Below the pieces are notes generated by a model. That model saw nothing but the letters and a program-made list of their open reading frames with translations, did not search any database and had not been told where the DNA came from. Below are positions 32,501 through 58,863 of a stretch of 64,000 nucleotides of DNA, in pieces (position 1 is the first letter of the stretch; each line of letters begins with the position of its first letter). The position numbers were made by a program, and so were the translations under genes. Source of the DNA: Styela clava (Eukaryota; Chordata; Ascidiacea; Stolidobranchia; Styelidae); NCBI RefSeq assembly GCF_964204865.1, contig NC_135259.1, forward strand, positions 17,370,974 to 17,434,973, written 5' to 3'.

Positions 32501-35500
32501 TTGCCCATTTCAATCGAAATATTATTGGCAAATCTAGAACATACGATCTTTTTTCAAAAGGGTTTTATCAGTCCACATCCACAAAAGTAAATACTATGCA
32601 AAAGTGCGAATGCTAAAAATGATTTATTTCAACCACCCACGCAGGATAAAAGCCAATCATCAAAGTCGGTTTTGAAGAAGACACGTAATACAAGTGAAGA
32701 TTATGTAGCGATGGAGAATGATCAAACGCGGAACACAGCAATGGTAGTTAATACAAGATTATCAGAAATCTAAGATCAATTTGGGCCTATCGTTGAGTTT
32801 CATTTTCTATAAGATTCAGAGAGTGGTAGGTTTGTCACCGCACCTCAGGTTACCCGGCGTGGCTTCGCTTCCCTTGGAAATAGGGGATATATATATATAT
32901 GAGATCACTCGGGATACACAGGGTGTCAATAACGTCCTTTTACAATTTCAATTTTGTTACGAAGTCAGTTATATTTTAATATATCTTAACCGGGTTTGTT
33001 CTTTTTTAATCAGTAAGTGTTTAAGTATTTTTTCTTCCCTAAATACAAACAATACAATATATGATATAGAAAAATTTCCGTTGCAATCTTGAAAAAATTT
33101 AAGACTTTATGGACACCCTATGTAGCAAGAGTGAACAAAACTATCCTAAGTGATTCAAGAGTCTTGCTGCACACTAACACAAACTATTGATGGTTGAACT
33201 TTGTATGTCTGAAGAAGTCTAACCTTGGTCAGACGAAACGTTACAGAAATATATTTGTGTTAGTGTGCAGCAAGACTCTTGAATCACTTAATCTAGTCAG
33301 TGTTTATCTTTCAAAAAAAATGTAGTTTTCGTTCTATCTGAGAATGAGTCTGTCCTTACCACGTAGTTCGTCCTTTGCGCATTTTAGTGAATCTTTCCAA
33401 ATTATTCATTTTTTGCTTATTGTTAAATTTTCATGCAGATGCCAACTCTCACCCAAAGAAAGAAGCAATGGGATAGAGTTCCTTCCCCCCCACCACCAAC
33501 TTCGCGAAGTCCAAAAATTTTCAATGCAAACAAGACTGATGACGTAATGAACAAACCTTCAAGTAAGACGAACACCTTTGCTGCGATTAAACTAGGTATT
33601 GAAAATGAACGTGAAAAATATTGATAATAAACTATGTATAGATCTCCCCCCTCCCCCGCCCATAGGCTTCCGTCCCTTTGCGCAGCTTTAGGTAAAGTAG
33701 GCGAACAAAATTAGTTACCTCAGTATTGGTACACATAGTTTTGGATCTCGAGAAAACTAAAATTTCAGTCACACACATTGGAATTAGAATATGAATTAGC
33801 GCTAAGTAAGCCTACTTTCGATCAATTAATCCAAGGAATACTAACTTTAATTATTGAGGGTGTTTTTCACGTTCTTTTCCGAAATATTTCAGTAAACCTA
33901 TAGCTAAACATAAGATATAGTATTCTGTATATTTCTGAGAGCTTTGGGAACAGACAACTTGTAACTTGGTCTCTTATTCAGTAAAGCCGGGATCGATATG
34001 ATTAGACTCGTCAACTTTTATTTATATATATATATATATATAGTATTCATCGACCCGGCGCGGTTGCTTTAGTGACTGTGAAGTGACTTTAGTGAAATAC
34101 CAAAATTATATCACTATTGGAAGGCTACGTTTATAAATCGTATTCGACAAAAAGACTTCCAATTGGGCGTTAATCATTTCGTAAAATATATTTTTTCGAT
34201 TTCGCAACATTATGGATTCGGAATTTCCAGGTTCAAATTAAAACCATTGCCATCGTTAGAAGTTGTATAAATGTAAACATCATTGCTTGCTCCTTTGTTG
34301 ATTGTAGTTCCGCTCTCTCTCACGCTTTCTGTTTTTCAATAGATCTCAGGCAAGTTGGAACGTTTAAAGCAGGAATCATGAACATGCTTCAACATGTGAG
34401 AAAAGGACCAGAAGATGGAAATAACCAACTGACGCCTAAATATGACGATGTGTCTCCCGGTCAGTTCTAGAAATTTTCTAACTTATTGGTAAAATTAAAC
34501 AAATTTTGGTACTCCCGTATAGCGTAGTGTATGCACACTTCTGGAGCGCCCAAATTTGAGTATAACAGCGAGTTGCGTCCAAGCATGTCACTTCTAGTTG
34601 AATTAGCCGATCGTCTTGGTTTGCAGCCTTCCAACGAAATAAATTTTTTAAAGATTTTATTCGAAACTGCATTTATTCGATGGATAACTCAATAATAGTT
34701 TCAATTTTCACAGACATGTCAATGGGAGACGACTTGGATGGTCAAGTTTATATTCCTTCAGCTCCGGGTTCGGTTTGCGACAATATCTCTATGTGGTCTG
34801 ATAGCACGTTTGATAGCGTCAACTATTCAGGTAAGAGCGCGTTTTTAATGTCAATCTTTGGCAACCATTGTAAGCTAAATAACGAAATCGTTAAGTCCGA
34901 TTCCGAAGTTTACAGTGTTCCCCCAAAAATGAGACAGTGTCTTATTTCAATTTTCTTTGGAAATGTAACACTCTGGCTTTTTTTGGGAGATGTCTTTTAT
35001 TTATATTCATCAGAAACAAAATTAAAAGTAGAGGAGATATTTTTTTAAATTCAGGCTAGGTTCGATTTTCGGGAAAACACGGTAGGCCTAATCACATTGC
35101 GGCAATTGACTTAACAGTATATATAAGCCATCTGCTCGAAGACAAAGCCGGGGCGAAGCTTGCTGACTTGAACCTATTAATTAGTCCTCCTTGTACAAAC
35201 ATTTACAATTTTTAAAAAAGGTAGGAGATCACATCGTTCATCAGTTTTCCTATGTATAAGTGTACATACGTAATTCTTCACAGGTTCCATTACATTTGAA
35301 CCCACGTACATTTGAACCCATGGCAATTGCACCTGTATGCTATTGCACCTATGGAATTTTTTTTGTTTTTCGGATAGTTGAACCCACACTAACCCTAACC
35401 CATGGGTTTTAGCACCCGCATATAGATTGAACCCGTGGATATACACATGGGTTCAAATGTACGTGGGTTCAAATGTACGGTCACCCCCTTCACAATATAT

Positions 35501-38034: not shown

Positions 38035-41000
38035 TCAATATCTCCTTTGTATGGGTTTATAATTGGCGGGAAACGATGATCTTGATTGTCTTGTGTCAGA
38101 TGATGGAATGTAGCCTTGTGTTGCAGGTATCATAGATTGTGGTGGTGCTATCAATGCAGTGGGAGATGGTGCAACTGTACCGTAACCTGCTGCTGCAAGC
38201 CTGAAAATAAAAGATTACATTAGGTTTCATATCGCCCTCAACCTCTCTTGAGCCGAGGTTTCCCACCTTTTTTAAAGCAAACCAGGTTTTTAAACAAAAT
38301 AAAATTTTGTAAAACCTCGCTTTCCAAGAATATGCCCAAATACGAAAAGCATTGTAATGCTCTTATAGTAGATGGTGCTAAATCTTACACTTTGACACTT
38401 CCAAATGATGTAATTACTAAAGAGCAACACGTCAACGCAAAATATAAGATAAACAATAAAATTTGGTGATAGTAACAGAAAAGCATTTAATGTTCCAAAT
38501 CTCATCCTGTGTGATTCAGTATTACAGCTCAAATCAATGTTAAAACTGATGGGTTGAAACCCCAGAAGACAAACCTAAATTAGAAATAAATGTATATTCT
38601 CACATTTGTCTAGAAATGGCAGATGTGGCCGAAGCAGGCATTGATGAACCTGGCCAAGCTCTAACGTTCTGTGTTGCACTTGGCCACTGTTGTACATGAC
38701 CCCATGCTGCACTTCCTGTATTACGTCCTGTTGTAGGAATGGAGCTGCCCCTGTGAAATCAAGAACCCTTATTGTTTTCATGTAATACAAAACCATGCAT
38801 TTTGAGTTACTCACGTAGTATGTGTACCAGGTTCGAGTCAGGCCATAATTTTATTCCGATTTTCCTTGTCTAAGTTCGGGGACTGTAGGTGTCGAGTAAA
38901 TATACCCTTCAGCCCCTTTATTAAACAACTTGATGTAAAGTAGACGAACAAAATTAGTAACCTCCATATTGGTACACACACACTTCCAGAGCGTCGAAAT
39001 TAGTCGAGAATGAGATTAATTAGAAAATGATAAACATATCATTGTACGCAATGACCTTTGTTTCAAACATTTCTCAAACTAAAAAGAGTATCCAGCATTG
39101 GTATACCTCACAAATATCAAAGCAGCTGACAGAGGTCACTCCAATGGCGATTTGAGCCATATATTTATCCTTATGTACAAGACAAATTATGTGAAGAACA
39201 GAACTATTTCCTAATTTGAATGGCCCTTCAGAACATTTCCCAACCATCTCATCTCCTTATTGAAATCATGTGAGGAACAGGGCTATCTCCCAACAATGTA
39301 ATGGTCCTTCAGTACATTTCCTTTCCCAAACATCCAATCTCCTATCCATGCCAAATAACTATACACGTATCCAAGTGAAACACCACTTACTCAGATCCAA
39401 CAGAATAAATCTGAGAAGAACTGGATTCTGTGCTATCAGGCCATCGTCCTTGATATTGTCCGCTGGATCTTCCTGGTGGAGATGGAGAGTGACTGCTGTC
39501 ATGACTTCCTCCACCTCCTCTTCTCTGGCTTCCTCTTTCTCTACTTTGTTCAGAATATGAATCCTACAATAAGAATAAGATAGGGTTTCATATTTATTCA
39601 ATGGGGCAGAAAAGACGATAGGACGATCTACACGGCGTACCATTTCACAATTTTCCAAACTGAAAATGAAATTCTTTCATCATTCTAAAACATGCCTGTC
39701 AATAGAATTGTCGGAAATTTAGAGTCCCAGTACATTTCAAACTTTCTTAAATCAGTGGTTCCCAAAGTTGATTGACCTTGACCGGGAGCCAAAATTAGAA
39801 GCGGGAGGATATTCACGAGCTTGGAGATGGGAGCGGCGAAAGGGCGTGACTTGTATTTAATCCATTTCGTATAATTAAGAATCATAGAATTATTACGAAT
39901 ATACACATGCTTAAAACTGATAATGACATAACAATTGGCGATACCTAGAACGCAAAACTAAAAACAAAGTGTTAAAAAGTTCGGCATGGCGTTTGGTGTT
40001 AAATCACTACGCAGGCTGTAATAGGCCTGCGGGCCCGTGTAACTGGCTTGGTTCACTGTCCTAAAGTTACAAACACACGTATACAGTATAACATATGAAT
40101 TCATTTATTCCCACCTGTCTGCCACCTCTGATCTGTTCTCTCAAATCTCTATCATCAACTCCTCTTCGTGACGTCTCACGTCCAGTCGTCTTTCCAGTAT
40201 CTCGCCAAGCACCCCCTCTTGATCCACTAGATGGTGCCCTTGCATTACCAGAAGGTGAACTATCCCTTCTGGCACGTCGGACTGGAGGCGACTGCTCTCT
40301 TGTGATTTCTATTCTAGCTCCAGATCCACTGCGAGCACCGGGACGTCTGAATTCCTGGCTTGTGGCACTGGAACTGTGAATACAAAGGAGAGAAATTGAA
40401 CTTAGTCCTGCAAATACTAAAATTATTTTGATGCTGGATTTTTGAGGTGTGGTCTATCAAAGATTATACTAAGGGGTTTCAGAGGAAATTCTATATTGCA
40501 ATGCGTTGGAAATTTAATGATTTAAATTTAATGTTTAAACAACAAAAAGTCCCACAAATTAGGGTTACTTGTCAATTCAAGTTAAAATATTGAGAGTTAC
40601 ACGGTTACACCCTCGGTTATCTGATATGAATTTTATATTGCATCTGGGGCTATAATGAAAAATTTAATATTGTAATAAATGGAAACTCACAACAGAATCA
40701 ACGTACAACAGACTCAAAAATAGTCAAAAAAAAAATGAAACACCAATCCTACCCTGTCTGTCTCTCCCTGACCACTTTTCTTCCACTCTGGTCCCTGCCT
40801 GATGCAGCAGTAGGTCGCCTACGACCCTGTGAATCTGCTGTTTCACGATCTGTAAAAAAATTAGGATGTCTGAGTGAAAATAAATAATAATATTGCCAAA
40901 AGCTTGTAATTAGAATTGCATTCAATTATATACACCCCGCTCTGAAAAGGGGCATTGTACAATGTGTCAACTGATATGTGAGCTTACAGATTTTGGCAAA

Positions 41001-44000
41001 AATCCCATCTGAGTTAAAAACATGCTATTTACAATGCTTTTGCATATAAACCAATATCAAATGATTACCGTAAATCATAAATTAGATGTCAATTGGATGG
41101 AAAACTATACAGTATAAACAAAATCTAGATATGCAGGGTGTCCATAAAGAACCTTTATATTTTTCATTTTGTTATGTAGTCAGTTCTCAATATATCTCAA
41201 CCATTTTTTTTTTAATCAGTACCTAATTGTTTAAGTATTCTGTCTTCATTTATTACATCTGTGACTGTGAGGGCCAAAACAATATACAGTATCGATAAAT
41301 TCCCTTTGCAATTTGAATTTTTTTTAGGACTTTATGAACACCCTATATAACACGAACAAGTTGCCAACAAATTGGGATATGGTAACTCTGCACTCCAGAT
41401 AAAAACTAAATCTTACCATAACCATGAGCATATTCCACAGATCTTCCACCAGCAGTATCTCTTGATCCAGGTCTTCTGTCATATTTTTCAACTGTTCTAC
41501 CAGCAGTTGCTGCTGTGCTTCCACCATATCTAAATATAGAATTCCAAGTTGACTTGAGCTTAAACAAAATGGATTATGAGAAATTCGACCACATCTGAAT
41601 AATGTAGGACTAAAATATAATAGAGCAGATATTATTTGCCCAAAAAGCTCGGATAGACAAAAAAATTGGGACAGTCTTACACAGCTTCAGTGTTTCACAA
41701 CAGGAACTCGTTTTGGAGGAGGAATAATACTTGTAAAACATATATGCAACACTTCAAACAACATATACGCAAACAAATTAAACTGCGCAAAAACCGGGGT
41801 GTTGGGAGTTCATAACACTACTTACACTAGCTAATAATTCATAATTAAAGGTTAAATAGAAAATAGCACAATAAAGGAGCATGAAGAGTTTCGAAGAAGT
41901 CAAAAGGAGAGATATAGTCAAAAAGGTTTGTTCAACATACCTGGCATCTCCATCAGGCCCTCGTCTACCATCACGATATTGTCCAGCAGCACTGTTACCA
42001 GATTTTCCACGACTGTCTGTTGGACCACTTCCTGATCCATGGTAAGAAGCCTGCAACAGGAATATATTTTGAATATTTGAACCATTTCATATGCATAAGA
42101 CTTCAATAAGAGGACACTTGGAAAATTGTAACGCAGCTTAGGGTGAGATATCATACCGACAAGATAGGTTAATAAAATTTGGAACTTTTGGAACTATAAG
42201 TAAATTGGTATAGGTTTTCATATTTTGTAATTGTATATTTGAAAATCTTGTAATGCTCTACTTTGTAATTTTTGTTTTCGATTGATAAAAATAAAAGACA
42301 TCCCTCCCAAATAAGACCTAGTGTCTTTTCAGAAAAAAATTGAAATAAGACTTTTCGTGGAAAAACTGTATGGTGGGTTTAGTCAGACAATTGTTACAAT
42401 GAATGTGGCCGGCTAATGTTATTGTTACTTATCTATCTTGATCGGTAAGTATGTTGATAGGTATTTGTCTGTTTGTTTGTTTGTCTGTTTGATGCACGCG
42501 ATATCTCACGAAAACAAGGTTGAATCTGCTACAAAGTTTGCATGTGCATTCATCATATCTCGAACCAGAAGCCTATTGATTTTGGATGAATTATGTCGTA
42601 TAATTAGCGAGGTATTGATTAATTAGTGATGGGACACAAGGTGTCACTATAGAGTCAGAGCGAATGAATCGAAACTGCAGTTTATGTTTTTGGGGATCCC
42701 CTAACTTTCGATCGGTGATTCTCCGGTCTCCGACCGATATTTTCGTTGGAAAGTTGCTTGATCAAATCTCAGTTCAGATAGGGGCGAAATTACTTCTACA
42801 CTATACTAGCTAGTAGAACTATTCAAGAAACTTCAATCATCATTACTGAGACCATGATCAATGTCCAAACCCCCTAATTTAAAATAATAAGGCAGACAGA
42901 TTAATTACAGAATCAAATTAGTTTGAAATAATTTGGGAATCAGAAATTTCTTATAATAAATGTTTGACTAAAGCTCTAGTCTAAAACAATGGTTCTTAAA
43001 CAGTGGGCCCGCTCCACGAGAGGGGGGGTAGACAATTTTTTGAGAGGGCGTGGGGCTGATTAAAAATAAATATTTGATCTTGTCTGCCTAATTTTGGATA
43101 TTTACATTTCTTCATACTGGATAGTTGCGTTCCATCCACGTATTTTCATAGTGTCTTTTGAATAAAAATCACTTTTACCTTACTATCTGTTATTCCTAGC
43201 TAGTTTTTTTTTAAGGTGAGGGGCGAGATTTGACGAATTCTAAAAAGGTAGCGCGGGCGCGAGGCTGAAAAAAAAAATTGAAAACCACTGCTCTGATAGG
43301 TACATTAACAAGTCTGTGTGTAATATGATGCCGGCGATAATGATATTCTAGGACCAACATGTCCTCAACTCTCAGGACGATTTGCTAAGCTATTCAATGA
43401 CTAATCCACGCCTTTATGTATGACAAATAAGCATGAGAGAATGGTAATTCCAGGGCAAATTATTTACCTGACTTGATCTGTAGGTTGTAGTACCAGGTGG
43501 AGGAGGTTCAGAAGAATCGTTTCGTGACAAAGGTCCGTTTCTTGATGGTCCACCACGCTGATTGTAGCCATCATAGCCTCTGTGAATTAAAATTAAAGAA
43601 TGACTTGATTTCCAAGGGCAGTATAGTGTAATTTGTAAGGATTGGAATTGTTAGATAAAAAGGGTACTCCCGTAGTATGTGTACCAGGTTACGGCTCTGT
43701 TAATTAGAATAAAAAATGACATGATTTCTAAGGCAGTACATTGTAATTTGCAAGGGTTGGAATCCTTTGATTAAATGGGTACTCCCGCAGTGTATGTACC
43801 AGTTTAGGGTTTAGACCATAATTTTATCTAGATTTTCCTTATTTTAATTCTATTACGAGTTCGGGGACTGTGTTATCCAAATGCACATCCCCCTGCCCAT
43901 AGGATTCAGTCTCTTTACACAACTTGATGTGAAGTTCGCGAGCAAAATTAGTTACCTCCATATTGGTACACATACTTCTGGAGCGCCAAAAAAAAAAGAC

Positions 44001-47000
44001 TTTGCAATTAACATTAACACTGAATGCTTTTACCAAAGTTTGTGCCAGAGTTGTATGTAGACTCATCAGAAACATTGTAAACTATCAAATTTTGGAGTCG
44101 CCTATCTAAATAGAATACCAGATTTCACAAAGGTCTATGCTGAATGATTGATACTTGCAATAATGATTCTAGTATTATTTTTTAAATTCCAACTCTCCTA
44201 TGATAGGAATAGGATACGATATTATTAATCAAATGTGATAATGTCTCAGTTCAGATAGGGGCGAAATTACTTCTACACTATACTAGTTAGTAGAACTATT
44301 CAAGAAACTTCAATCATCATTACTGAGACCACATCACAGCTGAACCATAATTAAAAATAAGGCAGACAAAAAAATTACACAATTAATATTAAATTAGTTT
44401 AAAATAATTTGGGAATTTTCAGATCAATTTTAAGGTAATGCATTAACTTAGAAAACGAGAATATTGGTCAGAGACCGAAGACTTATGGATCGAAAGTTAG
44501 GGGATCCCCCAAAACAGTGCTTTTACTCTATAGTAACACCTTGTGTCCAATCACTAATTAATTAATAACTCGCTAATTATACGACATAATTCATCCAAAA
44601 TCTGGAGCAGATTCAATCTCGTTTTCGTGAGATATCGCGTGCATCTAACAGACCGACAAACAGACAAATACCTATCAACATACTTACCGATTAAAATCAA
44701 TAAGTAACAATGGTCGAACACTATTCTATATAGAAAACTATAGGCTAACCACTTCACATATTCGGTTGGTGATTAACGCAGTGTGGGGTATAAGTTCCTA
44801 AATCCAGAGGCGAGTCAAGTCAAATATCGATTCAAGTCGCACTAGGCATCAGTTGATGACGAGTCCGAGTCAATACATTCAGGTGAGTCAAGTCACTTCA
44901 AGTCTTTTTAAAGAGTGACTTGGGTCGATGAAGCCCCCCTCAATACACTGATTATTAATTATACATCTCCATTATGTCAAAACCAGTGATTGATTGAGGC
45001 ATTTTCGCAAATGATTGAAGCAACTGCCATATTGATTCACCACAATTTTTGGCACTCCAGAAGTCTGTGTACCAATATGGCGGTAACTAATTTTGTTCGC
45101 CTACTTTACATCAAGTTGTATAAAGGGACTGCAACCTATGGGCAGGGGTATATTCACTAGGCTTACACATACAGTATCTGAACTCGTGAAATAGAACTAA
45201 AAGAATGAAAATTGGAAACACATACAATGAGGGTACCCAATTTTTTCAAGTCTGTTACCTTCTGTCATCTCGTTCTCGTCTTGAATCGCTTCTTCCAATT
45301 TCTCTGTCAGAAACCATCGGACGTTTCGAGTCATATATATCACGGTTGGATGAACGGTTGCCACGGTGACTAGTTGAATCATCGTCGTATGTTCGCTTGA
45401 TTGCACGTTGTCGTTGTTCCACTTCGTACCTGGATTCAAAAATGCAATTTTCTTTATTAATCTGCACAACTTTAGTCAGAAATCAAGATGCTTGCATCAA
45501 GTCCACAACCTTATTTTATTAAATAAATCCTTATGGAATTATATTTATAAATGATATATTGCGCCATATTCATCATTTGTTATGGGTCTAGCTCACTGGT
45601 TTTCAACAGAAACATTTTCAAGTGGGCCACAAAGCTTCCATAAATTGCTGGAGAAAAATCGAATAAACTTGGATTGTAGTATCAATGACGAATGATGCTA
45701 TTTCTGCCACTGAGTGGAAATTTTTCTTTCAAATATTTAAGTGGAAATTAAATCTTTACAAAAAAATTTTTTTGTAGTTTTTCCCTTGCATGAGTAAGGA
45801 ACTAGGCCACAGCATTTGTTTGTGCAAAAAGGTGGGCCACTAAAGAAAAAAGGTCGAGAACCAAAGGTCTAGCTTCTACTTATTATTTCAAAACTAACCA
45901 TAGAACTAATTATCCTTCATAAACATATCGAGCAGAAACATAAACAGACAAATACGCAGCTTCAATCCAGGGTTAGTTGGTTGGCAATGTCACCCAATCG
46001 ATGCAATATTTGATTCATCTCAAAATACCTGTTTCACATGTATGACTCACGGACAAACGACTTGATACATCATTGGAATATATAGAACATAAGATCACAA
46101 CGAACAAAAATCAACAAAGCGATACAAAACATACCTGGTGATTTCTTGCAATCTTCTCATTTCAGCTTTTTCTCTTTCAATTCTTTCTAATTCTCTTTTT
46201 CTTTCAGCTTCAAGACGAAGTCTCTCTGCTTCGAGTCTGTGGTTAGAAACAAGTAATATAGTGAGATAGAGAAATCCTATGGGAAGAAAACACATTTGCT
46301 ATCAGGCTTTGTGAAGCAATCGGTTAAGAGATTGGTAAAATCTAACAAAGTTCCAATTCCAAAGTTACATATAATCTATAGCAATATGTCCAAGTTGTCC
46401 AAACCACTGAATTTAAAATTATAGAATGTTTACCCATAATGAGAGTTTGCATATAACTTTACTATATTCTAATAGTTTCAATCCTTTTATGTTTCCTAAG
46501 TGTTTCAATCCTTTTATGTTTCCTAAGTGAGAGTCTTGCTGGTCATAAATATATTTCTGTGATGTTTAATCTGAAGGTCAGACTTCCTCAGACACACATT
46601 ATCCAACTACCCACCCAAATAGCACAGAAGAAGGGATGACTAGTTAGTCCCACATAAGCCAAATCGATAGCATCTGTTAAGTTTTGAAGAAGTTAGACAA
46701 GGATCTAACTAAAGCATACAAATATACTTGCTATTTCTTGAAAAGACATTGTTCTTTTTTATAAATTATCCGAATATTATTCAAAATAAGTATTCTCACC
46801 TCTCTCTTTCTTGTCTATCTTTCTCCAATTGTCTTCTTTCTCTTTCCAATCTCTCTCGTTCCTGTCTCAGTTTATCTCTCTCTTCTCTTTCCCGCCTCAA
46901 TCGTTCTCGATCAGCGTGAAGATCGGCTCGTGATGCACCTCCTCGACCCAATCTAGCCCCACGTTCAGCAATACGCGCTCGATCACGTTCCCGTTGCTGA

Positions 47001-50000
47001 GCTCTTGAAATTATCAAAAAACATGTTACATAGTTGTTGGACAATGAGAGTAGATTGATTGTGAAATTGATCGCGCAAATATCATCCTACAACGTAGAAC
47101 ATTGTAATTATCAGCACCCGTAATTAGGAATTGCTGGTCCATGGGAAAAAAAGATTAAATGCAGTAATTTCGGAAAATCATTGGATGGCAAGTTACATAG
47201 TGGGCATATAAATTGTCACTTTAAAATCTTTATTCAATATTCATTGAAAGGACAATTCTACTGATTCAAGAGTCTTGCTTGAATCAACCAAAACCCATTC
47301 CTCAGACAAACATAATTCCATTCTATGAGTTTAATTCTCAAATAATTTTGGTGAGGAATAGAGTTTAGTAACATGAAACATTCCAAAAATTATATTCGTT
47401 CCAGAGCGCAACAAGGCTGTTGAATCACTTTATTAAGTATCTAACTTGCCACAGCATCCTTGGTACTATGCGCCAAGCATGACAGATGAACCAGCACAAA
47501 AGGTTAATAAAAAGATAGTCCTGTAAAAATCTGAATTATTAATAAAATGAAGAAAGCAAAGAGTTGTTCAAAAATATTCATTAACTGCGAGTTTTTTTCC
47601 CCAAGAAGATCAACATAGAGGGGTAGGCAAACTTGAAAGCTGCCATATCCTACAAACACTACATTCTCTACTACAAAATAGAATTTAAATTAAATAAATT
47701 CTCCGCAATTCTTACCTTATTTGATTGAATGACAGGATTCCTCCCCTGCCAGTGTTTCTGGATTGCGCACCCCTTCTATCTTCATAAGTACCTGATTGTC
47801 TCGACAACATACCTCCTCTGCCTCCCATCCGGCCACCTCGCCCTCTGTCAATAGAAAAAGATATTGATTTTTGATGTGTCCCCAAAGCCTTTCAATTTAA
47901 AATAGTCTAATCTATTAATACTCCAGAAACAAGGGCTGAGCATTTTGGAAGGTCCAAACGAAAACTTCGAATCGCCGCCATCTTGTTTTTTTGTCTGCCA
48001 AATCCCTGAATTTTTTTTATTGAAGCCACATTTCTAAACTACAATTCTGTCGCGAGACCCTTTTATTCTGAATTTTCACTCATACATGTTACGTAAAGCT
48101 CATATAATTACGTAAAGTACTCGCTGAACTGACTGAGCGATGGATGCTATGTTCACGAAAAATTCATGTGTCTGGAGGACCATTACATAGAAGTTACATA
48201 CAATTACATATCTCATAAGTCACAAGTATTCGATTCAAGATTTATCAGGTATGTGAAAACGTCCAGCCTTAGAAGTAACCCTACATATGACAAGAAGCTA
48301 TATACAAGTCAATAGGGCGCTCCAGAAGTGTGTGTACCAATATGGAGATAACTAATTTTGTTCGTCTACTTAACATCAAGTTATGTGAAGTGACAGAAAC
48401 CGATGGGCAGGGGTATATTCACTTGGCTAACACAGACAGTCCCGAACTCATAAAAGAACTAAAATAAGGAAAATCAGAATAAAATTATGGCCTAACCCTA
48501 ACCTGGTACACACACGAAGAGTACCATCATTAGTGCAATAGTGATCCTGGCTTTATGGCAACCACAGAGTTATATCATAAAACTTCAGAGCAATAATTAG
48601 AAACAAAAACTCCACCCACCTTCCAGTTCTAGATAGAACTGATCCTCTCATAGGTGATAAAGGTCTTCTTCTCATTGGAGAAGCGCTTCTTCTCCTCGAC
48701 AAGAGTGGTTTAGGCTTCTGATCATTGCCTTGCCATCTGAAAGAAAGACTGAGAACTAAACTGTCATGCTATGAAGCTAATAAAAGGAAATGGAGGTGTG
48801 CAAGAAGACTTCCTTAGAGAAATGTCAAACAAAACAAACACTCATTATACATAAGTAATAGAAACCCTGCTACATGGAAGTGAATGTCCTTCAATAATAT
48901 AGAATTGGATTTGCATACTTTTACCAAGACAAGCCGCTAACATGGCTTTATCTTATGGCATACCAAAGCCTCTCACGTGTTTACCAGTCCATGGTGCGTA
49001 TAGGATTAGTTTATTCTTTATTTCTCAAGTTATCTTCTTTATTTCAGACCTTTGGTTAGTTCAGACTTGAGGAGGCTGTAAGCGACAAGCGGTTACATGG
49101 ACCACCACCACTAATCTCGCACATAATTATCCCCACACAGGATTCGAACCCCTGCAGGGTAATCAGAGGTGCGGCTAAAAGCATAATTATAGCGCTTAGC
49201 ACGATGTGCTAACCACCATAGGAAACACCATATTTCTACCTGGCAGCCCTTTCACTGTTTCTGCTGACGTTCACTCTGAGTTCACCTTTATTAGAATCAA
49301 TGACAACTTTTCTGTCAGCTGAAAACAAAACAAAATATTCAATAAGGGTTTTTTGTAAAAACTGCAACCTCAAATGTGCAAGGGATTCATAAAATGAGCT
49401 GCTTGAGCTGCAATTTGCAGATTACAGAATCAATGCTTTATAATAGAGTAATTTTTTTAACAAATTCATGTCTCTCAGTTCAGATAGGGGCGAAATAACT
49501 TCTACACTATACTAGCTAGTAGAACTATTCAAGAAAGTTCAATCATCATTACTGAGAGAACGCAAGTCAAGCATGCGGGCTGTACAATAATGTTAATAAA
49601 GTACATTCTTTTACCAAAATTCTATGTTCAGCGCAACTCGAAACTAGACTAATGTATGTAACTTAGAATAGTTTTATTCGAAAATTATATTTTGATCAAT
49701 TGAAAATTTGCAATATCAACAACAAACAGCCTAAACAAGATTTCTAATTTATGTGAAAATAAATCATCTTTTTTTACAACTTTTCAATTAAAAACTCTTT
49801 AAAAAGGCTCTTTCTTACACATGAACCCTTTAACAAGAATATATTCAATATTCCATTTTCGAAAATATTATTCCAGAATGTTATCAAAATCCCCGGCTCA
49901 CAGTTCTAATTCAAATCTAAGTCATCGACAATCTAATGTGAAAAAGATTATTTTACTCTACATATGCATTGACATGAATCAGTCATTTCCTTGTTCTCAA

Positions 50001-53000
50001 TAATACCCACCAGCTTTGATTTTGAAAAACTTTCTTTTTCCATTACGTGTGGGTGATATCCCAAGTTGGTCATAATTTTTTTCTGATTTTCCTTATTTTA
50101 GTTCTATTACGAGTTCGAGGATGGTCTGTCTGTCTTAGCCAAGTGAATGTACCCCCTGCCCATAAGCAAACAAAATAAGTTACCTCAATATTGGTATACA
50201 CACTTCTGGCACACCAGGAAGTTATAAAAACATGTATCATCCTAATTGGCTTTACAAGTGAAACACTAGTTGAAGAGAAAAACACAAACCTGCATCAGGC
50301 TGTCTCGCTCTTTTTCTCTCCGGTTCATCTTTACCTCCAGAAGCTCCAGTACTGCTACGTGATGAAGCATTTCTATTATGTGGTGGAGATCTGTTGTGTC
50401 GTTTCTCTCCACGAGGTCCACTAGAGATGGAAGTAAGTGTTATATAGATACTTATGATGATAGACTATACACAAAAATGCACAATGCAACCTAATTTAGA
50501 TGCTTTTCCTTTTGCTTAGAAATTCAGCAAGCTTTGAAAAAAAGGTAAACTACACTTTTAATTATTAAACTTGTGATGAAATTGAATTAGCGCCACCCAA
50601 TGTGGCCAATGTGGACCATTGTTAATAGTCTCGTGGGAATGCGAAGGTTTTATTTGGTTAGCGTGCGTCAGGATTGCTACATCTTATAACTTGCTCTTTT
50701 TCTTGTAATCTTTTTTGTAGTAATCTTCAAGTTAATAAAAGCCTAGAAAACAGTCTAAATGAGTACTCCTCGAATGGTTTCACTACAAAACTTTTTGATC
50801 TTTCGTTACTATGGACCAGTGGCCATCTTTTGGTCTGGGTTACAATACTGTACCTGTTTTAGTTTTTATTTTAAATGGTGCCTTATGTATATTTTTAGGT
50901 TTGGCTGTTAGAACCAAACTATTATAAAAATGCGATTTTTTTGAAAGCTTAAAATGCGACATCAGCTTAATTGATTATACTCCGTGAAGTCTGTGATATT
51001 CATTAATAAAAAGAGCTCTTGAATCTATTCTATGGAAAGATTGCCAGACATTGATTTTCAATAATTTACCAAATTCATCAAATTTCATAATCCAAGAGTT
51101 ACTGTTTAAACAATGAACTAATGTTGTTCTGAAAGATTTTCAATTCTTGCAGAATTTAGGAATTGCAATATTATGTCTCAGTTCAGATAGGGGCGAAATT
51201 TCTTCTACACTATACTAGTTAGTAGAACTATTCAAGAAACTTCAATCATCATTACTGAGATAAAATTATAATAATCCATCACTAATAACAACATCACACG
51301 GAAGCCCAGAGTTGTAACTCACCTGGCGGAAGTTCTCTCAGCACGAGATCTATCACGAGCAGGAGATTTGGATTTTCTAGTGTTCTTAATGTCATCTAGA
51401 AACATTTTAATTTTTATAATTAGTATAAGTATGTCAGCACGATGAAAACTCTACGGCTATGAGGCCGAAAACTCGAAAAACGTGTGTAGACATATTTGCA
51501 TTTTTTATATTAATTTAACGCAGTGTTTTTATTGACTTTTTTTTAAGTTAGTCAAAGCAATGGATTTTTCGTAGAGTTTCTCTTGTCATTAAACAAATTC
51601 ATTTAATCCTAAACTTATGCTAATCACCATTATCATCCAAAATGATTTTACACATTTATATTTTGCATACAAATATGTAGAATATGGACTTTGCAGAATA
51701 TAACTTTGCAATATTTTTGAATCGACGCCTAAGGCATACTGGCATTCAGTGTGAGCTGAGTTGTCATCAGATATAATATGACAAATATTATCATCATCAT
51801 GCCATATGCCACTGTGAAAGATAAATCCAAAAAATATGTGAGATTAGACGTGAGCTATTTGTGGTATAGTCCAGCGGGGGCCACAGAGCAGTTGGAGCGG
51901 GACCACCATGTTAGGCAGAAATATCATTTTATTTTTCACTTCACAAGAAAACTCCTTGTTCTTCCTAGTTTCATTGCTGATAATGTTATTTCACAGGGTG
52001 TTTTCACTTTGGTAAGCATGAATTGTTTAAACATTATGGGATTTGGATTCTACCAATCAAAATAACACTATAATTACCACTGGAATTTTAATCAGATGGT
52101 ATGAGAGCTAAAAGTATCAGGAAGACGAGTCATTCAAGGTTGGGAACTACTGCTATAGTCCTTCCCTGGTGATCGTGATATCACTTTTGTGTGGATATTT
52201 CTTGTCAAAGTGAGCAAACAATAACTAAAAAGTCTTAAAAAGAATAAGAATATGTTACTAGTTTGTTAAATACAGATATCCAAATTTAGTAGCTCATAAG
52301 ATAGCAACCTACCAGTACTTTTTCTTGCAGCTGAACCATCTTTACTTTTAGCATCCGATGAAGCAGGTTTTTTGTCACTGCAAAATATATAAAATATAGA
52401 ATATTATGGTGAAGAATAGTCTCTGAATGGTCAATGTTTTTTCAAATATCTGCAAGTCATGAAGGGCCTAATATTTTACGACAAATACATATTTACATAT
52501 TTTTTGTGGGGAATTTGGCTTGATTTTTATTATTGACAGCCAACAGGAACACCTTGTATCATTCTGATCAATTTCTTTCACATATGACCTGCAATTTGAC
52601 ACTGAGCAATATTGATCATCATTTGACAGTCATGAATATTGCTCTCTTGCATAATATGATTGCACGGTGATATTATAAGCTCAACGGAGTCACAATAAGC
52701 TAAGTAATTGATTACACATCATTACAGGTACTCATCGTTACTTCCTGGTGATCAGTCATTTCAAAATGATTGGCATTCAGTGTGAGCTGAGTTGTCATCA
52801 GACAAACATATGACCAGGAATATCATCATCATGCCAATGCTATTTTAAGCTAGACCAGGAGTGTGCAATCTTTAATACACAATACAAATGATGGTTCTCC
52901 GTAGTCTGTGTACCAAGATGGCGCACAACCTGAACATAGTATGTGTACTAAAGTTAGGATTATCAGGTTGTGCGCCATCTTGGTACACGCACTACGGGAG

Positions 53001-56000
53001 CACATAAATGACACATAAGCACGAAAATTTTGATTATTGACCTTGTGACACGCGTTGTTCGCTTTGCACAAGCTCAGATACCTATTAGTCTGCAAGTTGA
53101 CACGGCTACATTGCTAGAAATGGCCAAAGCGCTATGTTATAGTGGCGAAGTCCCTCAATCAATGACACGCATTGTACAGCTACTAACTACAAACCTGTCT
53201 ATTTTATCTTTATCTCCACTTGCATCCTTAGTGGATGACGATGTAGCAGCTCCAGACTGGCGTCTAGTTGATGTAGAACCAGGTTTGGAATCAGATTCCT
53301 TAGATTTCGATGAAGCGTCTTTCGATTCAGACTCTTTTTTGGCAGAACTGCTTGAAGCTGGTTTCTTTGAAGAGGCAGACGGATCACCTTTCGCCTTTAG
53401 AAAATAAAATTGCAATTTTTCAGGTAGTAAAATTAGTTTAAACGAGTTATCACCTGCACCGAACAGTTTATTATTCGCACTAATTAATACTTCCCCAATT
53501 GGACTTTATTCGAGAGAACACTGAACAAAATAGCATGTCTATATCTATGTGAAGGGTGTCTCAAAATTGTCGTGTCCCACTCGACCCATGTGTCACACGT
53601 GTTTCACTTGTCCCACATGTTTTACTTGACCCATGTGTCCCCGCATTTTCGAAACACCACTATGTGAACACCAGCTTTTTAAAAAGCAGAAACGTGAAAT
53701 AAAAGATTCCTATTTTAGGTGATTTCCAATTCCCATTTATCAGAAATCCACCTAAACCTAGATTTTGGCCAGATTATACATACAGAATTCTCTGCCGACG
53801 ACAATTTTCCAAATTTTCATTATTAAAATACCAGGTTTAAACATGGCAGGAAATTATTTCTGCTTAATTTCAGACCCAGAAAACCAATGTCTCAGTTCAG
53901 ATAGGGGCGAAATTACTTCTACACTATACTAGTTAGTAGAACTATTCAAGAAACTTCAATCATCATTACTGAGGCATTGGTTTTTACGCATCTCATCTTC
54001 CGAGTTTTAGAATAGGTTGCCACTATACAGCAGGGTTGCTCAGTGCAGAGCAAATCACCATTCACCATGACTAAATTTAATTTAAAATTGACCAAGACTT
54101 GAGCTAATCAATTGGTTTCTGTGGAACTAACTACTCTAACTACAGCACAATTTTGGAAGTCTCTGTAAGGGGGACCCAAGTGTTGAAGTCTGTAAAAGGG
54201 GGCCCACAAATGCTGAAGTCTATGAAAGAGGGGCCACCACTGAGGTTTGGCATATATTTCAGATGTAATAAAATTATTATTTCAGTCTCCAGCATTTGTG
54301 AGTCTATTCTGGATGGAGTCACTTACAATTTCGACAGTGATCATTCGTCCATGCATCTCGGTATTATTCAGATGAAGAATACATTTACTAGCAGCTTCTG
54401 CAGTTGCCATAGTGACGTAGCCATAACAACGAGAACCAGGACTTTTTACATTTGTCACAACTTTGGCTCCGATTACCTGGGAAAAATTTTAGCATTGATT
54501 AGTTACTTCATAATTAAATTTGTTAAGCTGTGGGAACAATTTATTATAAGTGAATAGCAAACATAATATGCTAGGTTGGGCCTTAGTGAAATAGATGTGG
54601 AAATTAGAGTCTGATTGAGGGCTGCTCATGATAAGCCTTGAACGAGGTCTCTTCATAGAGGCGAGGATAAATTAAGCACAACCGGTGTCAGCAAAATAAA
54701 ATGATTAGATTTTCCAAACGTCAGAAGATTACATCAACTTGACTATACGTGGTGGCAATTATGCGCAGTCTTTTCATCATTTCAGTAAACCTATGGTATA
54801 TATACATGGAATATACGAGAAATGCGAGAAAATAGAACATCAATTTGGCACTGGTATAAATTCTCATTCAGATTATTCAGACTTTATATTTACCAAAAAT
54901 TTATAATTTAGCGATACTAAACTACAGGACTTATTATTGAATAAGAATACTCACTTTGCCATATCTGCTGAAAGCACTTTTCAATTCGCTCGCACGAGTT
55001 GTTGATGATAGACCACTGACCCATAAGTTCTTATTCGTTGAATCGTCTTTCTTTGATGCAGAACCACTTTTACCACTAGAGGGTGTCTTATTTCCATCCT
55101 TAGTTGCCGAGGTTGAACTGCTCATTATGATAAAAGAATTATGTTAGATACAAAAAATAGCCATTTTTTTTTCTAAAGTCCTACTCTAACAATGTTTAAA
55201 ATATAAGTAAAACAATATCACAAAGGCTAGGAGCGACGGACTTTAATAAATATTCATGCACAGAAAATTGCTTTTTTCTGATGTGAAATATAACGAGGCC
55301 AATTTTGTGTTAGTGTCCAAATCACCGTAGTTGATTTTGAGTATGATGCTGACACCAGAGCACGCTTATCCATAGGTCGGATAGTGGCATATCGGTAGCA
55401 CGAGGGTGTAAAATTGCTCCATTGGCTTGTAACAACATTTACCACTCACGAACCTCTTTGATGATTGCCCTCCGGATTTTGATTGGTCGGCTGATGGCCT
55501 TTTTAGGGAGTCTGAGCTTTGCCTTGTTTTGCGTTGTTGTGAGGGGGACATGGTTTTGTCATTGGTTGATTTCCCGGTATTTGTAGTACCCTCGCTTTCT
55601 GAAGTTTTTGTCTGCTGGTCCTCTGGGTTTATGTTATTTTGATCGCTAGTAATCTCAAGATCATAATCCAACATGTCGAGGAAGTCTTCTTCAGCTGCAA
55701 CTTCATCTTTCCCAGTCTCTGATTTCTCTTTCTCATCAACTAAATCTTGCTTAATGACTTTTTCGTCCTTTATATTTTCCACATTCATTTTGACATCTTG
55801 AATTGTACTTTCACTAATGTTATTGTCCATAGTATCAATTTTAATTAAAGTATGACCCGTTTCCGTTTGTGCTACATCAGCCTCTTCAATAGTCTTGTCA
55901 GGGAGATAGACTTCAGAGACTACCACCTCCTCTGTTAAGTTCTCTTGCGCAATGTCCCCTTCATTTTTAACGAGACTCCCAGCTGCAGGTTCCTCAATGG

Positions 56001-58863
56001 TTTCCTCCATATTGACATTGCTTTCAGACTCCCTAAATGCGGCCACTACTTGTTCACCCTCTCCAGTCACATCCACTGAAGCTTCTTCCTCAATTTGGCC
56101 CTCGTCCTCAGGATATTCACCAACATCCTCGTGTTCCGACCTGAAATCATTACCTTCCATATTAACCTCCTCTGATTCGATAACTTCCTCATCACACACT
56201 TGTTGAGTGTCTTCCTCATATGTAGAACCCTCATCATCTTCCTCATCTCTCGTTGGAGTGGCATCGTTGTCGTCAGCCGGTACCTCTTCAGTGTCTTGAG
56301 TGCGAACTTCCTCGGTAATTTCTTCCTCTATTACGACGTTTTGTTGCTCGATTTGAGATGGATTGACCGAGTGAAATGATGCCTCATCAATTGTATTGGA
56401 GCCATTGATTTCTTCTGCCCTTTCTACATAGGATTAGTAAAACGTTTGGCGAATAAATTACAATAATAATTTTAAGCATAACTAATAAAAGTTATTTGTT
56501 CCCCCCTAGATATTTACATAATGAATATATTATTCCCATTCCCTTATTTTTCAATTTAAATTTGAAATCAAGACTCCATACTTTTGTAGATTGAATTTCA
56601 AAACAAGGCTTGAAGGCTGCCATGCAATGAACAGATGACTGAAAAAAATTGAAACGCTCGAAACTCCAATCTTCGAGTTAACTTTCTTTTTGAAGAAAAT
56701 ATACTTTGAATGAATTTGAATAAGAAATCTGGCTGCAAATTAGTCCATAATGATGTGGCATAAGCTTCCTAGTATGGGTTATTAACCGGTTGAACAAGAC
56801 TGGAAATTTCCAAATTTAAGTAAGAATAAAACTTGTTGTGGTTGTTTGAAAACTTCAAGACCTTTTAACTTTAAAATATAAACTTTAAAAAAAAAATCCT
56901 CGACTTGGTGAATGAATAACTTGTTGTTTCCATCCTGCTGCTTCCATCCTTTTTCTATTTTTGTTGGACTATATGAGAATACACGGTAGGTGATTGAGAA
57001 TACACGATTTTGGTAGTTGTCCGATTTCATCACTTTTATCGATTTGCTGGCTTGCATGTATGGTGCTTGCATTACAATAAACTCTCACGACCTTGCTCAA
57101 CTTTGAGCGAAATATAAAAATCTATAAATATAAAAGTAAACTTTCTTACCAGTTACTTCCACAGTGTCAGGCTCTCCAGTCTCCACTTTTTCCTCCTGTA
57201 GATAAATTTACATTTAATTTGACAATTCAACTGCAGGCTATGAGGTTATATTTGTGGATAATTGTGATTTTGAATATGCCATCTTGGGCATTATTTCAAA
57301 AACCTCAATTAATAACCTGCTGTTTTATGCCCTAGTGCTATAATTTTAAATCTGAATTGGCCCATATATCTTACAATACACACATATTTGTATATTATTA
57401 ATTGTAAGCAACTCCCAAGGTGAAAATCAAAAGTCTCATGGCCAGAAAAGTATGTATACAAAAGCACAGAATTGCTACTAGTCTTCCAAAATGATGCTTA
57501 GTTTGCCAACTTGGACCAATTTCCCCAGACTGGATTCAATGGCATGTGCACGCCCGAGGGCGCTAGCGGATGTACTCAACAGTATTTAGAGTCAAAGTCA
57601 GTTGCACGCGGGCACAGTCGTTTTGCACACAGTGATCTCTGATTGCACGCCGAGCATTCTGATTTACACGTGGGAATTCCTGATTGCACACCAGATTTCT
57701 CGTTGGAAAAGGCCATGAAATCTATACTGGGCCTTTCCCACACAATTCAGCAATTGGTTTTGTTTTGCAGACTGATGACGATTTACTTGGTATTCAACAA
57801 AAAAATACAGACTAGAACGTGAATCAAATAATTAGAATTCTTTCTGAATAATAGTCATCAATAAACAAACCTGAGATGACTCTTCTTCACTTTCAACAGT
57901 GCGCTTCAATCGCCCGACAGACCTTCGAGAAGCTTTTGGTGAAGCAGTTTCTGATGCAGAGAATTCAATTTCACTGGCATTACCACCTTCTTCCTCGATG
58001 GCCTAAGAACAAAAATACATCGAAAATTCAAGCCTGTTTTCAGGTTTTTGATAGAATAATTGGAATGCAGTTGTAACTTTTTTGTCAGAGTTTCATTCTT
58101 TTCAAAGACAAAATCTATGATTATTGAAAATAATTTGAAAACTTGAATACGAAATTCATTGGTACAATTCATTTACCATATGATAAAATACTGAAACGAG
58201 TCTTGATTTATTTTATGTCTGTACCGGTATGTTAAATCAATACAGCAATAAGTTGAAACAGTAAAACAGTTTGATATAAAGTGAAGTCTGAACATTAATA
58301 GAATAATAGGTCAGTGAATGGATGCATTGACAGCTTCTCTTCAGACTTCAATTTTATTCTAGTGCAGAAGTCAAACAGTACCGTAACCCAGACATTTTTT
58401 TTATGCTCCAAAATACAGCTGCAATCCGGAATGTATTACAGTATTCAAGCTGAGAAGTAGACTAGCCTATAACCGGAATGATAAGAAAATATTCAACAAA
58501 TTCCAATAATCTGTAACAAACCTTTTGCAGTCGCTGAACAAGAACACCTTTCAGTCCTTTGCTTTCCAAGCCACGTTTTTCGAGCTCTACTTTCAGCTCA
58601 GCAACTCTCAGATCGCTGACCTTGCGCTTCATTATAAGCAACAAAAAATGAATTCAGATTCCAAGAATCAAGTCGTCAATGTTAACAAGGCTGTTGGAAA
58701 ATTCCTATCCCGATTCTACAAAAGTTTCTGAGTCAAATGCAAAGACCAGAATTTACAAACGTGCAGTCCACGCAGCTGCGACGTTTCACACATAATGCCA
58801 CGGCTTCCACGAGACTAACCCTTCTTATTTTAACTGCGCTAATACCTGCGCAGTAACCGCCAT
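38035..58863 (-). CDS. SAFB: SAFB/SLTM homologue (scaffold attachment factor B), 25 coding exons, snoRNA host
   Basis: SAFB-type proteins bind scaffold-attachment DNA and RNA in the nucleus and act in transcription and splicing. The exons, all in phase, are 58846-58863, 58522-58626, 57871-58002, 57150-57195, 55454-56423, 54955-55120, 54327-54476, 53195-53394, 52313-52377, 51323-51395, 50290-50420, 49240-49318, 48620-48736, 47716-47844, 46800-47003, 46135-46236, 45259-45429, 43468-43579, 41941-42050, 41417-41529, 40753-40849, 40115-40373, 39391-39563, 38604-38750 and 38035-38200 (about 1,344 aa). Domains: SAP ([19 protein letters not shown]), Glu-rich region, RRM near 453-531 ([20 protein letters not shown]1 [14 protein letters not shown]-like MHGRM), Lys/Ser linker, Arg/Glu coiled coil near 794-953, Gly/Arg/Ser tail ending RRY. 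The RRM closely matches SAFB. It is longer than vertebrate SAFB (about 900-1,030 aa). The exon 5 donor (GTTCGT) and exon 6 acceptor are the least certain junctions. Confidence 0.93.
38812..38998 (-). mobile_element. Family A element in SAFB intron 23
   Basis: Minus-orientation copy: ACGTAGTATGTGTACCAGG on the left and ATATTGGTACACACACTTCC on the right. The usual telomere-like block is disrupted here. Confidence 0.65.
41134..41345. mobile_element. Mariner-like MITE, family C, in SAFB intron 20
   Basis: It starts CAGGGTGTCCATAAAGAACC and ends AGGACTTTATGAACACCCTA. It is the best family C copy here and lies about 70 bp below the end of SAFB exon 20, immediately after its splice donor side. Confidence 0.75.
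42427..42748 (+). repeat. Family B ~300-bp repeat, forward copy, SAFB intron 18
   Basis: It begins TTACTTATCTATCTTGATCG and contains GATAGGTATTTGTCTG, GCACGCGATATCTCACGAAA, TATGTCGTATAATTAGCGAG and GGGGATCCCCTAAC. It ends near CGACCGATATTTTCG. Together with 44457-44712 it forms an inverted pair around exon 18. Confidence 0.8.
42767..42851 (-). ncRNA. SNORD80: Box C/D snoRNA, SNORD80-like, copy 1 (SAFB intron 18)
   Basis: Read on the SAFB sense strand this is TCTCAGT, then the C box ATGATGA, and at the 3' end the D box CTGA followed by ACTGAGA. The outer segments pair perfectly as the terminal stem. Directly before the D box is TTTCGCCCCTAT, an exact 12-nt complement of the 28S rRNA motif ATAGGGGCGAAA. 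By the D+5 rule the methylated base is the second G of the GGGG run, the site I recall as human 28S G1612 (yeast 25S G908), guided by SNORD80/snR60. A weak internal D' (CTAG) preceded by ATAGTTC would select the SNORD80 second site (A1521). The element lies on the host sense strand within the intron. Confidence 0.9.
42989..43293. mobile_element. hAT-like non-autonomous element in SAFB intron 18
   Basis: It begins CAATGGTTCTTAAACAGTGG and ends GAAAACCACTGCTC. The interior (GTAGACAATTTTTTGAGAGG, GTTCCATCC) matches 16014-16312. Confidence 0.65.
43779..43989 (-). mobile_element. Family A element in SAFB intron 17
   Basis: Minus-orientation copy running from ACTCCCGCAGTGTATGTACC to CACATACTTCTGGAGCGCC. 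A separate truncated end (GTACTCCCGTAGTATGTGTA) lies just before it at about 43665-43695. Confidence 0.7.
44243..44329 (-). ncRNA. SNORD80: Box C/D snoRNA, SNORD80-like, copy 2 (SAFB intron 17)
   Basis: The design matches copy 1: terminal stem GTCTCAGT with ACTGAGAC, C box ATGATGA, D box CTGA and the same 12-nt 28S guide. It differs from copy 1 at one internal base (CTAGTTAG on the plus strand instead of CTAGCTAG). About 100 bp beside it (for example AAGGCAGACA then AATAATTTGGGAAT) is also shared with copy 1. The two therefore arose by duplication of an intron segment. Confidence 0.9.
44457..44712 (-). repeat. Family B repeat, inverted copy, SAFB intron 17
   Basis: Reverse complement of 42427-42748: CGAAAGTTAGGGGATCCCC, ACACCTTGTGTCC, CGTGAGATATCGCGTGCAT and CAGACAAATACCTATCAACA are clear. 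It flanks exon 18 on its upstream side. Confidence 0.8.
45051..45215 (+). mobile_element. Family A element, 3' truncated, SAFB intron 17
   Basis: It begins GGCACTCCAGAAGTCTGTGT and runs to AGAACTAAAAGAATGAAAAT. The telomere-like block and right end are missing. It stops about 45 bp before exon 17. Confidence 0.65.
48315..48518 (+). mobile_element. Family A element in SAFB intron 13
   Basis: Well-preserved copy: GGGCGCTCCAGAAGTGTGTG at the left, CCTAACCCTAACCTGGTACA near the right end. The inverted ends pair over about 20 bp with a few mismatches. Confidence 0.75.
49090..49218 (-). mobile_element. tRNA-derived SINE in SAFB intron 12
   Basis: Read on the minus strand it starts TGGTGGTTAGCACATCGTGC (A-box-like), carries the B box GGTTCGAATCC about 50 bases on, then GTGTGGGGATAATTATGTGC. 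The same tail block occurs at 59290-59372. No functional cloverleaf is formed. Confidence 0.6.
49472..49558 (-). ncRNA. SNORD80: Box C/D snoRNA, SNORD80-like, copy 3 (SAFB intron 11)
   Basis: Terminal stem CTCTCAGT with ACTGAGAG, where the outermost pair has changed but still pairs. C box ATGATGA, D box CTGA and the 12-nt guide TTTCGCCCCTAT are intact. It differs from the other copies at two bases (one C-to-G change between the C box and the D' region, one T/A change outside the 12-nt match), neither in a functional box. The 3' splice site is about 150 nt downstream, the shortest distance of the seven. Confidence 0.9.
50050..50214 (-). mobile_element. Family A element, partial, SAFB intron 11
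   Basis: Minus-orientation copy from GGTCATAATTTTTTTCTGAT to TATTGGTATACACACTTCTG. The left terminus is degraded. Confidence 0.6.
51175..51261 (-). ncRNA. SNORD80: Box C/D snoRNA, SNORD80-like, copy 4 (SAFB intron 10)
   Basis: Terminal stem TCTCAGT with ACTGAGA, C box ATGATGA, D box CTGA and the guide TTTCGCCCCTAT are all intact. It differs from copy 2 by two bases just outside the 12-nt match. Flanks are unrelated to those of copies 1-2. It is a single copy in this intron, on the host sense strand. Confidence 0.9.
51733..51810 (-). ncRNA. SNORD29: Box C/D snoRNA, SNORD29-like guide, copy 1 (SAFB intron 9)
   Basis: Sense strand: GGCATATGGCAT, C box ATGATGA, a variable middle, then the guide ACAACTCAGCTCACA, D box CTGA and ATGCCAGTATGCC. 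The ends pair over about 12 bp. The guide can form about 12 pairs (one G-U) with the conserved 28S motif GTGAGCTGGGTTT. By the D+5 rule this selects the A of GTGAGC, the site I recall as human 28S A4493 (yeast A2946), guided by SNORD29/snR71. In vertebrates that guide sits next to D' rather than D, so homology to SNORD29 itself is uncertain. The target call is firmer than the name. Confidence 0.85.
52769..52838 (-). ncRNA. SNORD29: Box C/D snoRNA, SNORD29-like guide, copy 2 (SAFB intron 8)
   Basis: Sense strand: ATTGGCAT, C box ATGATGA, then TATTCCTGGTCATATG, the guide ACAACTCAGCTCACA, D box CTGA and ATGCCAAT. The 8-bp terminal stem is perfect. The guide, boxes and proximal stem are identical to copy 1. 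The middle of the RNA and the distal stem differ while pairing is kept, the pattern expected of a constrained RNA rather than a transposon. Confidence 0.87.
52893..53003. mobile_element. Palindromic family A-related element in SAFB intron 8
   Basis: The left end is CTCCGTAGTCTGTGTACCAA and the right end is TTGGTACACGCACTACGGGA, inverted. GATGGCGCACAACCTGA and its inverse lie inside. Confidence 0.7.
53883..53981 (-). ncRNA. SNORD80: Box C/D snoRNA, SNORD80-like, copy 5 with extended stem (SAFB intron 7)
   Basis: The core at 53891-53973 matches the other copies: CTCAGT, C box ATGATGA, guide TTTCGCCCCTAT, D box CTGA, ACTGAG. Outside it the intron continues to pair, CCAATGCCTCAG with CTGAGACATTGG, one mismatch in at least 12 bp. 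Such external intron stems can help bring the C and D boxes together when the snoRNA is far from the branch point. Here the next exon is about 490 nt away. Confidence 0.91.

Follow-up and report, generated by a model that had tools for sequence, protein, structure and literature searches.

Are short elements that recur five times within one protein-coding gene a family of guide RNA genes, or the remains of a mobile element? We addressed this question in a 64,000-nucleotide (nt) stretch of the ascidian Styela clava genome (contig NC_135259.1, positions 17,370,974 to 17,434,973), hereafter the window, whose numbering is used throughout. Here, a gene resembling SAFB carries five near-identical elements that an initial annotation, made from the letters alone, described as SNORD80-like box C/D small nucleolar RNAs (snoRNAs). 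Our analysis favors, with a probability of about 0.9, the reading that these are snoRNA genes of the box C/D type belonging to the snR60/U80 lineage, their products being freed from five introns in the SAFB-like pre-mRNA; judged from their sequence, the observation is real and the elements are almost surely box C/D snoRNA genes. The sequence, boxes, ribosomal RNA (rRNA) match, copy number, and outer-stem statistics reported below are established observations, and intron position comes from a gene model.

Five elements share one box C/D core

All five elements lie on the minus strand and have in common an 83-nt core that aligns without gaps, with 79 of its 83 columns being invariant. Pairwise core identity is 95-100%, copies 2 and 5 being identical and the remaining pairs differing by 1-4 bases. 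The 6-bp terminal stem (CTCAGT/ACTGAG), the C box (ATGATGA), the D box (CTGA), and the guide TTTCGCCCCTAT, which sits immediately 5' of the D box, are the same in every copy, confirming the earlier report of five near-identical box C/D elements. Each copy has the defining features of a box C/D snoRNA, i.e., a C box of the form RUGAUGA and a D box CUGA joined by a terminal stem. A search of the window for the guide gave five occurrences, always on the minus strand, compared to a mean of 0.00 in 100 shuffles. The positions of the elements and of the boxes in copy 1 are as follows:

42768-42850, minus strand: copy 1, box C/D snoRNA core with outer stem TTGATCA/TGATCAA
42837-42843, minus strand: C box of copy 1
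42816-42822, minus strand: D' relic guide of copy 1
42810-42813, minus strand: D' box (CTAG) of copy 1
42778-42789, minus strand: D-side guide of copy 1
42774-42777, minus strand: D box of copy 1
44245-44327, minus strand: copy 2, box C/D snoRNA core identical to that of copy 5, outer stem present
49474-49556, minus strand: copy 3, box C/D snoRNA core with 9-bp terminal stem and marginal outer stem
51177-51259, minus strand: copy 4, box C/D snoRNA core with 7-bp stem, outer stem no better than chance
53891-53973, minus strand: copy 5, box C/D snoRNA core with 9-bp outer stem AAACCAATG/CATTGGTTT past one mismatch

The initial coordinates did locate five elements, except that the fifth interval (53883-53981) includes part of the outer stem of copy 5. 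Four variable columns (20, 41, 59, and 60) separate four cores, namely copy 1, copy 3, copy 4, and the pair 2/5, and none of them falls within the stem, C box, D box, or guide. Thus, the claim that differences between copies spare these parts holds for them, but not for the degenerate D' box (CTAA or CTAG), the final base of which is column 41.

The guide matches 28S rRNA of the same genome

The genome searched comprises 376.6 Mb in 379 contigs. We found the guide to be an exact 12-nt match to its 28S rRNA (AUAGGGGCGAAA), and the fifth paired base from the D box is the second G of GGGG. This predicted methylated G is position 6160 of a ribosomal DNA (rDNA) locus, L036, in the context GGGTATAG[G]GGCGAAAG, and we take it to be yeast G908/human G1612. 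A functional guide is expected to show at least ~10 nt of rRNA complementarity upstream of the D box and a defined N+5 base; here, the complementarity is 12 nt and the base is G. With the site numbering so assumed, the elements carry the D-side guide of snR60/U80 for the G908/G1612 site, and the annotated exact complementarity at a site of this type is borne out in the organism's own 28S sequence.

A 27-base 28S motif containing the target has 48 genome occurrences (reversed control: 0), and one locus with this motif, L036, lies inside an Rfam LSU_rRNA_eukarya match. An rRNA-guided C/D scan of both window strands, which used 18S, 5.8S, and part of 28S as targets and required at least 10 nt of pairing, returned only the five elements, and nothing with reversed rDNA as a control; since candidates had to have a stem, a D box reading exactly CTGA, and a C box of the form RTGATGH, degenerate snoRNAs would escape it. 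Plus-strand matches of 9 nt at 14733-14824 and 62338-62443 had poor D' boxes and were taken as chance.

The 48 motif matches are scattered across many contigs, and both rDNA loci are broken: the 28S match of L036 (contig C1) covers model positions 24-664 and 667-1453 of 3401 and ends there, and that of L043 (contig C2) amounts to 1851 bases across 3401 model positions, this locus containing 2500 N.

Genome-wide copy number and the question of a mobile element

Near-identical copies in mostly unrelated flanks, an inverted terminal sequence, and the occurrence of dispersed repeats in the host introns are also what one would expect of a dispersed miniature inverted-repeat transposable element (MITE) with ends resembling C and D boxes by accident. 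A MITE should be present as many dispersed copies, and yet BLAST of the genome, even at E up to 10, gave six matches, i.e., the five copies here and one on contig C4 (86-87%). By comparison, two dispersed repeats of the same introns gave at least 44 and at least 40 matches, although scoring reached just 40 of 1450 and 40 of 3375 first-look candidates, respectively, so that the same search would have revealed a MITE. Moreover, the guide plus D box (two ambiguous positions allowed) was found five times in 376.6 Mb, always in this gene (reversed control: 0), the invariant part of the elements is the exact 28S guide at the D box, and all five lie in the host sense. We therefore rejected a MITE origin as extremely improbable, and the earlier statement that the elements are not a MITE withstood the genome-wide BLAST, with a single match outside the gene. 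As the C4 relative has one guide mismatch and lacks a matching terminal stem, it looks decayed.

One dispersed repeat family occupies host introns and nearby sequence (43808-44002, 45046-45175, 48316-48515, 50068-50203, 38818-38981, and 33653-33765); it has 3375 first-look candidates genome-wide, and all 40 that were scored match. Inverted copies of another dispersed repeat, at 42421-42747 and 44454-44711, adjoin snoRNA copies 1 and 2.

The copies lie in separate predicted introns of a SAFB-like gene

Introns were predicted from open frames of the minus strand by picking splice sites with a simple score and comparing their phases. The resulting host gene model is as follows:

38038-58632, minus strand: coding span of the SAFB-like host gene, 22 exon cores modelled, some junctions unresolved
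58522-58632, minus strand: SAP-domain exon (Pfam SAP, E 4.2e-10), exon start not fixed
54955-55117, minus strand: first RRM exon (RRM_1, E 4.8e-14, both RRM exons joined)
54327-54476, minus strand: second RRM exon (RRM_1 on joined exons)
42051-43467, minus strand: predicted intron of copy 1, phases 0/0 fit
43580-45258, minus strand: predicted intron of copy 2, phases fit
48737-50289, minus strand: predicted intronic stretch of copy 3, phases of best-scoring sites misfit
50421-51322, minus strand: predicted intron of copy 4, phases fit
53395-54326, minus strand: predicted intron of copy 5, phases 0/0 fit, immediately preceded by the second RRM exon

The gene encodes an N-terminal SAP, one RRM, and then R/E-rich and R/G-rich parts, with its last coding codon at 38038. 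Pfam identified the combination expected of SAFB, an N-terminal SAP and an RRM in one gene; the name is given for this domain layout, with orthology to SAFB itself being putative. The five copies lie, in sense, in five separate predicted introns, with at least one modelled exon between neighboring copies, so the annotated sense orientation inside one SAFB-type gene is supported by the predicted introns of a SAP- and RRM-encoding gene. Splice phases fit in four of the five cases; because they misfit at copy 3, a small exon may be missing there or a boundary may be off. We found no report of SAFB/Saf-B as a snoRNA host in the open literature, most subscription papers being outside the search.

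Intronic C/D snoRNAs of vertebrate type lie ~50 nt upstream of the branch point, according to PMC8162545. The cores of copies 1-5 end ~717, 665, 737, 756, and 496 nt, respectively, before the predicted 3' splice sites. This is not the vertebrate-type placement, and such distances make splicing-coupled assembly near the branch point unlikely.

Private outer stems and a proposed mode of action

The 300-nt flanks are mostly unrelated among copies; upstream similarity is confined to copies 1 and 2 (64 nt at 80%), and the flanks also share one repeat in inverse orientation. Outside the core, copies 1, 2, and 5 clearly have private outer stems (9 bp in copy 5), and copy 3 has a few extra pairs. When flanks were permuted among copies (120 permutations), the true pairing alone reached the observed energy at flank lengths of 10, 12, 15, and 20 nt, and two of the 120 permutations did so at 8 nt, as compared to 63-114 of 120 for control flanks located 30-105 nt further out. 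More specifically, the outer stems of copies 1-5 ranked at 0.0055, 0.0015, 0.0525, 0.641, and 0.002 against 2000 pseudo-sites in the same introns, and at 0.035, 0.003, 0.078, 0.509, and 0.0014 against 5000 random flank pairs (20 nt). When flanks are included in the fold, four of the copies exceed shuffled sequences in stability (z -3.4 to -5.5).

From these features we infer expression, processing, methylation, and dose as follows. Each 83-nt core with its terminal stem would fold into a C/D kink-turn and bind the C/D proteins fibrillarin, NOP56, NOP58, and 15.5K as a stable small RNA, TTTCGCCCCTAT beside the D box would pair with AUAGGGGCGAAA of 28S rRNA, and fibrillarin would methylate the fifth paired base, the G presumed equivalent to yeast G908/human G1612. 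In most copies, the private outer stem would probably hold C and D together, replacing splicing-coupled assembly. The copies would have arisen within the host gene, copies 1 and 2 still sharing their upstream flank, and all five were probably retained for dose.

In PMC10234308, terminal-stem stability is given as one of the main determinants of snoRNA expression, snoRNAs of one host are said to range often from unexpressed to abundant, and new snoRNA copies are proposed to survive where flanks permit a stable stem. The outer-stem pattern found here is largely as predicted by that flank-dependent survival model. The first two of these points, together with the want of an outer stem in copy 4, would also fit true snoRNA ancestry with only one or two copies expressed and the others being gene-converted passengers. 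However, all five copies have kept their boxes, guide, and inner stem intact, and they have outer stems of their own (three clear, a fourth marginal), which gene conversion of the core would not be expected to produce. We consider passengers of this kind somewhat unlikely; as this alternative overlaps with the expressed five-copy reading, the confidences in the two do not add up to one.

Far less probable, in our view, is that the chief role of the elements is to control how the SAFB-like host is spliced, with rRNA guiding being incidental. Pairing between a snoRNA and an intron can regulate host splicing (PMC10324135), the outer stems do pair intron with intron, and copy 4 lies ~63 nt downstream of the predicted 5' splice site; yet the 12-nt rRNA guide, which a splicing role would not need, is kept exactly in all copies.

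The second guide is a relic, and a separate candidate fits its site

The likeness to SNORD80 proposed initially is not complete, in that the second guide is reduced to seven contiguous pairs (ATAGTTC), in correct register, next to a D' box reading CTAA or CTAG. The A of the second (A817/A1521-type) site is position 6069 of L036, in the context GATGGTGA[A]CTATGCCT, 91 nt upstream of the target G; yeast A817 and G908 have the same spacing. A pattern search for an intact A817 guide gave 23 genome matches versus 13 in the control and was largely noise; 10 of the 23 were inspected, of which one stood out by combining a CTGA D' box with a 12-nt match and was retained. This candidate snoRNA (C6:3265691-3265766, ~6992-7067 of locus L044) has the exact 12-nt guide AGGCATAGTTCA one base 5' of the D' box, with the expected A at N+5, and is single-copy in the genome. 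It is a weak match (27.9 bits) to Rfam family RF00309 (snosnR60_Z15). Given a terminal stem of no more than 3-4 bp in the rRNA-guided scan, we regard it as a candidate only. The surrounding exons are those of a helicase gene, Pfam Helicase_C being present in two of three stretches scanned, and the sequence of this gene resembles domino/SRCAP.

Judging from these sequences, the D' guide for the second site appears decayed, and a separate snoRNA may serve that site. We tentatively suggest, as possible rather than probable, that an ancestral two-site snR60/U80 guide was split, the G908-type function passing to five doses in the SAFB-like gene (most with independently evolved outer stems replacing splicing-coupled processing) and the A817-type function to a single snoRNA in the domino/SRCAP-like helicase gene.

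Two further C/D candidates on the plus strand of L044 (C6:3258700-3268699; ~2464-2528 and ~4284-4350) are set among the same helicase gene's exons and carry identical 13-nt D' guides (GACAAGCATATCA) to 18S A28. Drosophila dom is named among snoRNA host clusters in PMC13228274.

Results that weigh against the snR60/U80 reading

Not all results favor snR60/U80-type genes held by private outer stems, and the following count against them. RF00309 is the best Rfam match for all five copies in an 11.5-kb scan (E 0.009-0.2), but its scores of 29.1-34.9 bits stay below the gathering score of 41 in every case, so the covariance check recommended initially, once run, placed all five copies under threshold. 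The lowest E of the same scan belongs to a sub-threshold MIR2599 match (E 0.0025, 33.7 versus 120 bits). Genome-wide, with 61 of 90530 candidates scored, RF00309 was not significant (best E 0.07, none above the cut-off); 11 sub-threshold matches were obtained among those 61, and just three of the five window copies were listed. Below-cut-off matches to RF00309 likewise appeared in 8 of 14 control genomes. The D'-side guide and D' box that snR60/U80 would have for the A817/A1521 site are lacking in intact form. As for the outer stems, that of copy 4 is no better than chance (0.641) and that of copy 3 is marginal (0.0525); copy 3 with its flanks does not exceed shuffled sequence in stability (z -1.24; 24 of 200); and when the flanks were displaced by 15 nt, the true combination again came out best (1 of 120), copy 4 being the strongest there, for which we have no explanation. 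Because the Rfam scores are sub-threshold, the family assignment rests on boxes, stem, guide, and register.

The pairing of shifted flanks concerns sequence 16-27 nt outside the five cores (42768-54000). We looked for four guide words in the other eight RF00309 loci (L017 and L019-L025) as well as in L007, the C4 relative; inspection of L017 (33 bits) found no G908-type guide. Sub-threshold matches in the host gene to MIR2599, snoZ105, SNORD65, and other families all fall under their gathering scores and were set aside.

Relation to known snR60/U80 systems

Five doses of one guide in a single protein-coding host had been called unusual, but a precedent for several copies is known. According to PMC1821038, each of introns 6-9 of Drosophila mfl/Nop60b holds one of the four copies DmSnR60 a-d, which are expressed and nucleolar, and methylation was mapped to the 28S positions predicted, G1083 among them; the name Me28S-G1083c has since become CD28c (PMC13228274). 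The elements described here resemble DmSnR60 a-d (Me28S-G1083) in the type of 28S site and in having highly similar copies, one per intron, in one protein-coding gene. In contrast to the four Drosophila copies in a pseudouridine synthase gene, there are five here, in a SAFB-like host and with a decayed D' guide.

Regarding vertebrates, PMC2653536 reports that a gas5-like host in chicken has U80 in two copies and suggests that U77 evolved from U80. The D-side target is of the same type as that of U80/SNORD80 and U77 in gas5, and a distance of 91 nt separates A1469 from G1560, the two U80 sites in chicken, the same spacing as here. Unlike our locus, the gas5 host is non-coding and has fewer copies, and the second guide in chicken is still 9 nt. 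The C/D layout, D guide, and D-side register are those of yeast snR60/RF00309, from which our elements differ in a D' box that is not CTGA, a 7-nt D' guide, and sub-gathering scores.

The arrangement is novel only in a mild sense, namely in its host gene, in having as many as five copies, in a second guide that has decayed while another candidate fits its site, and in statistics that point to private outer stems. The locus adds a further species, with a different host gene, in which the same rRNA-methylation guide is amplified in one protein-coding host. Since one core is present naturally five times, in intron settings that are mostly unrelated, it also provides a ready test of the outer-stem role far from the splice site. 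Knowledge of snoRNA function is unchanged by the finding.

At gathering thresholds, Rfam identified only tRNA in the whole window, namely a tRNA-Glu (TTC) at 9674-9746 on the minus strand.

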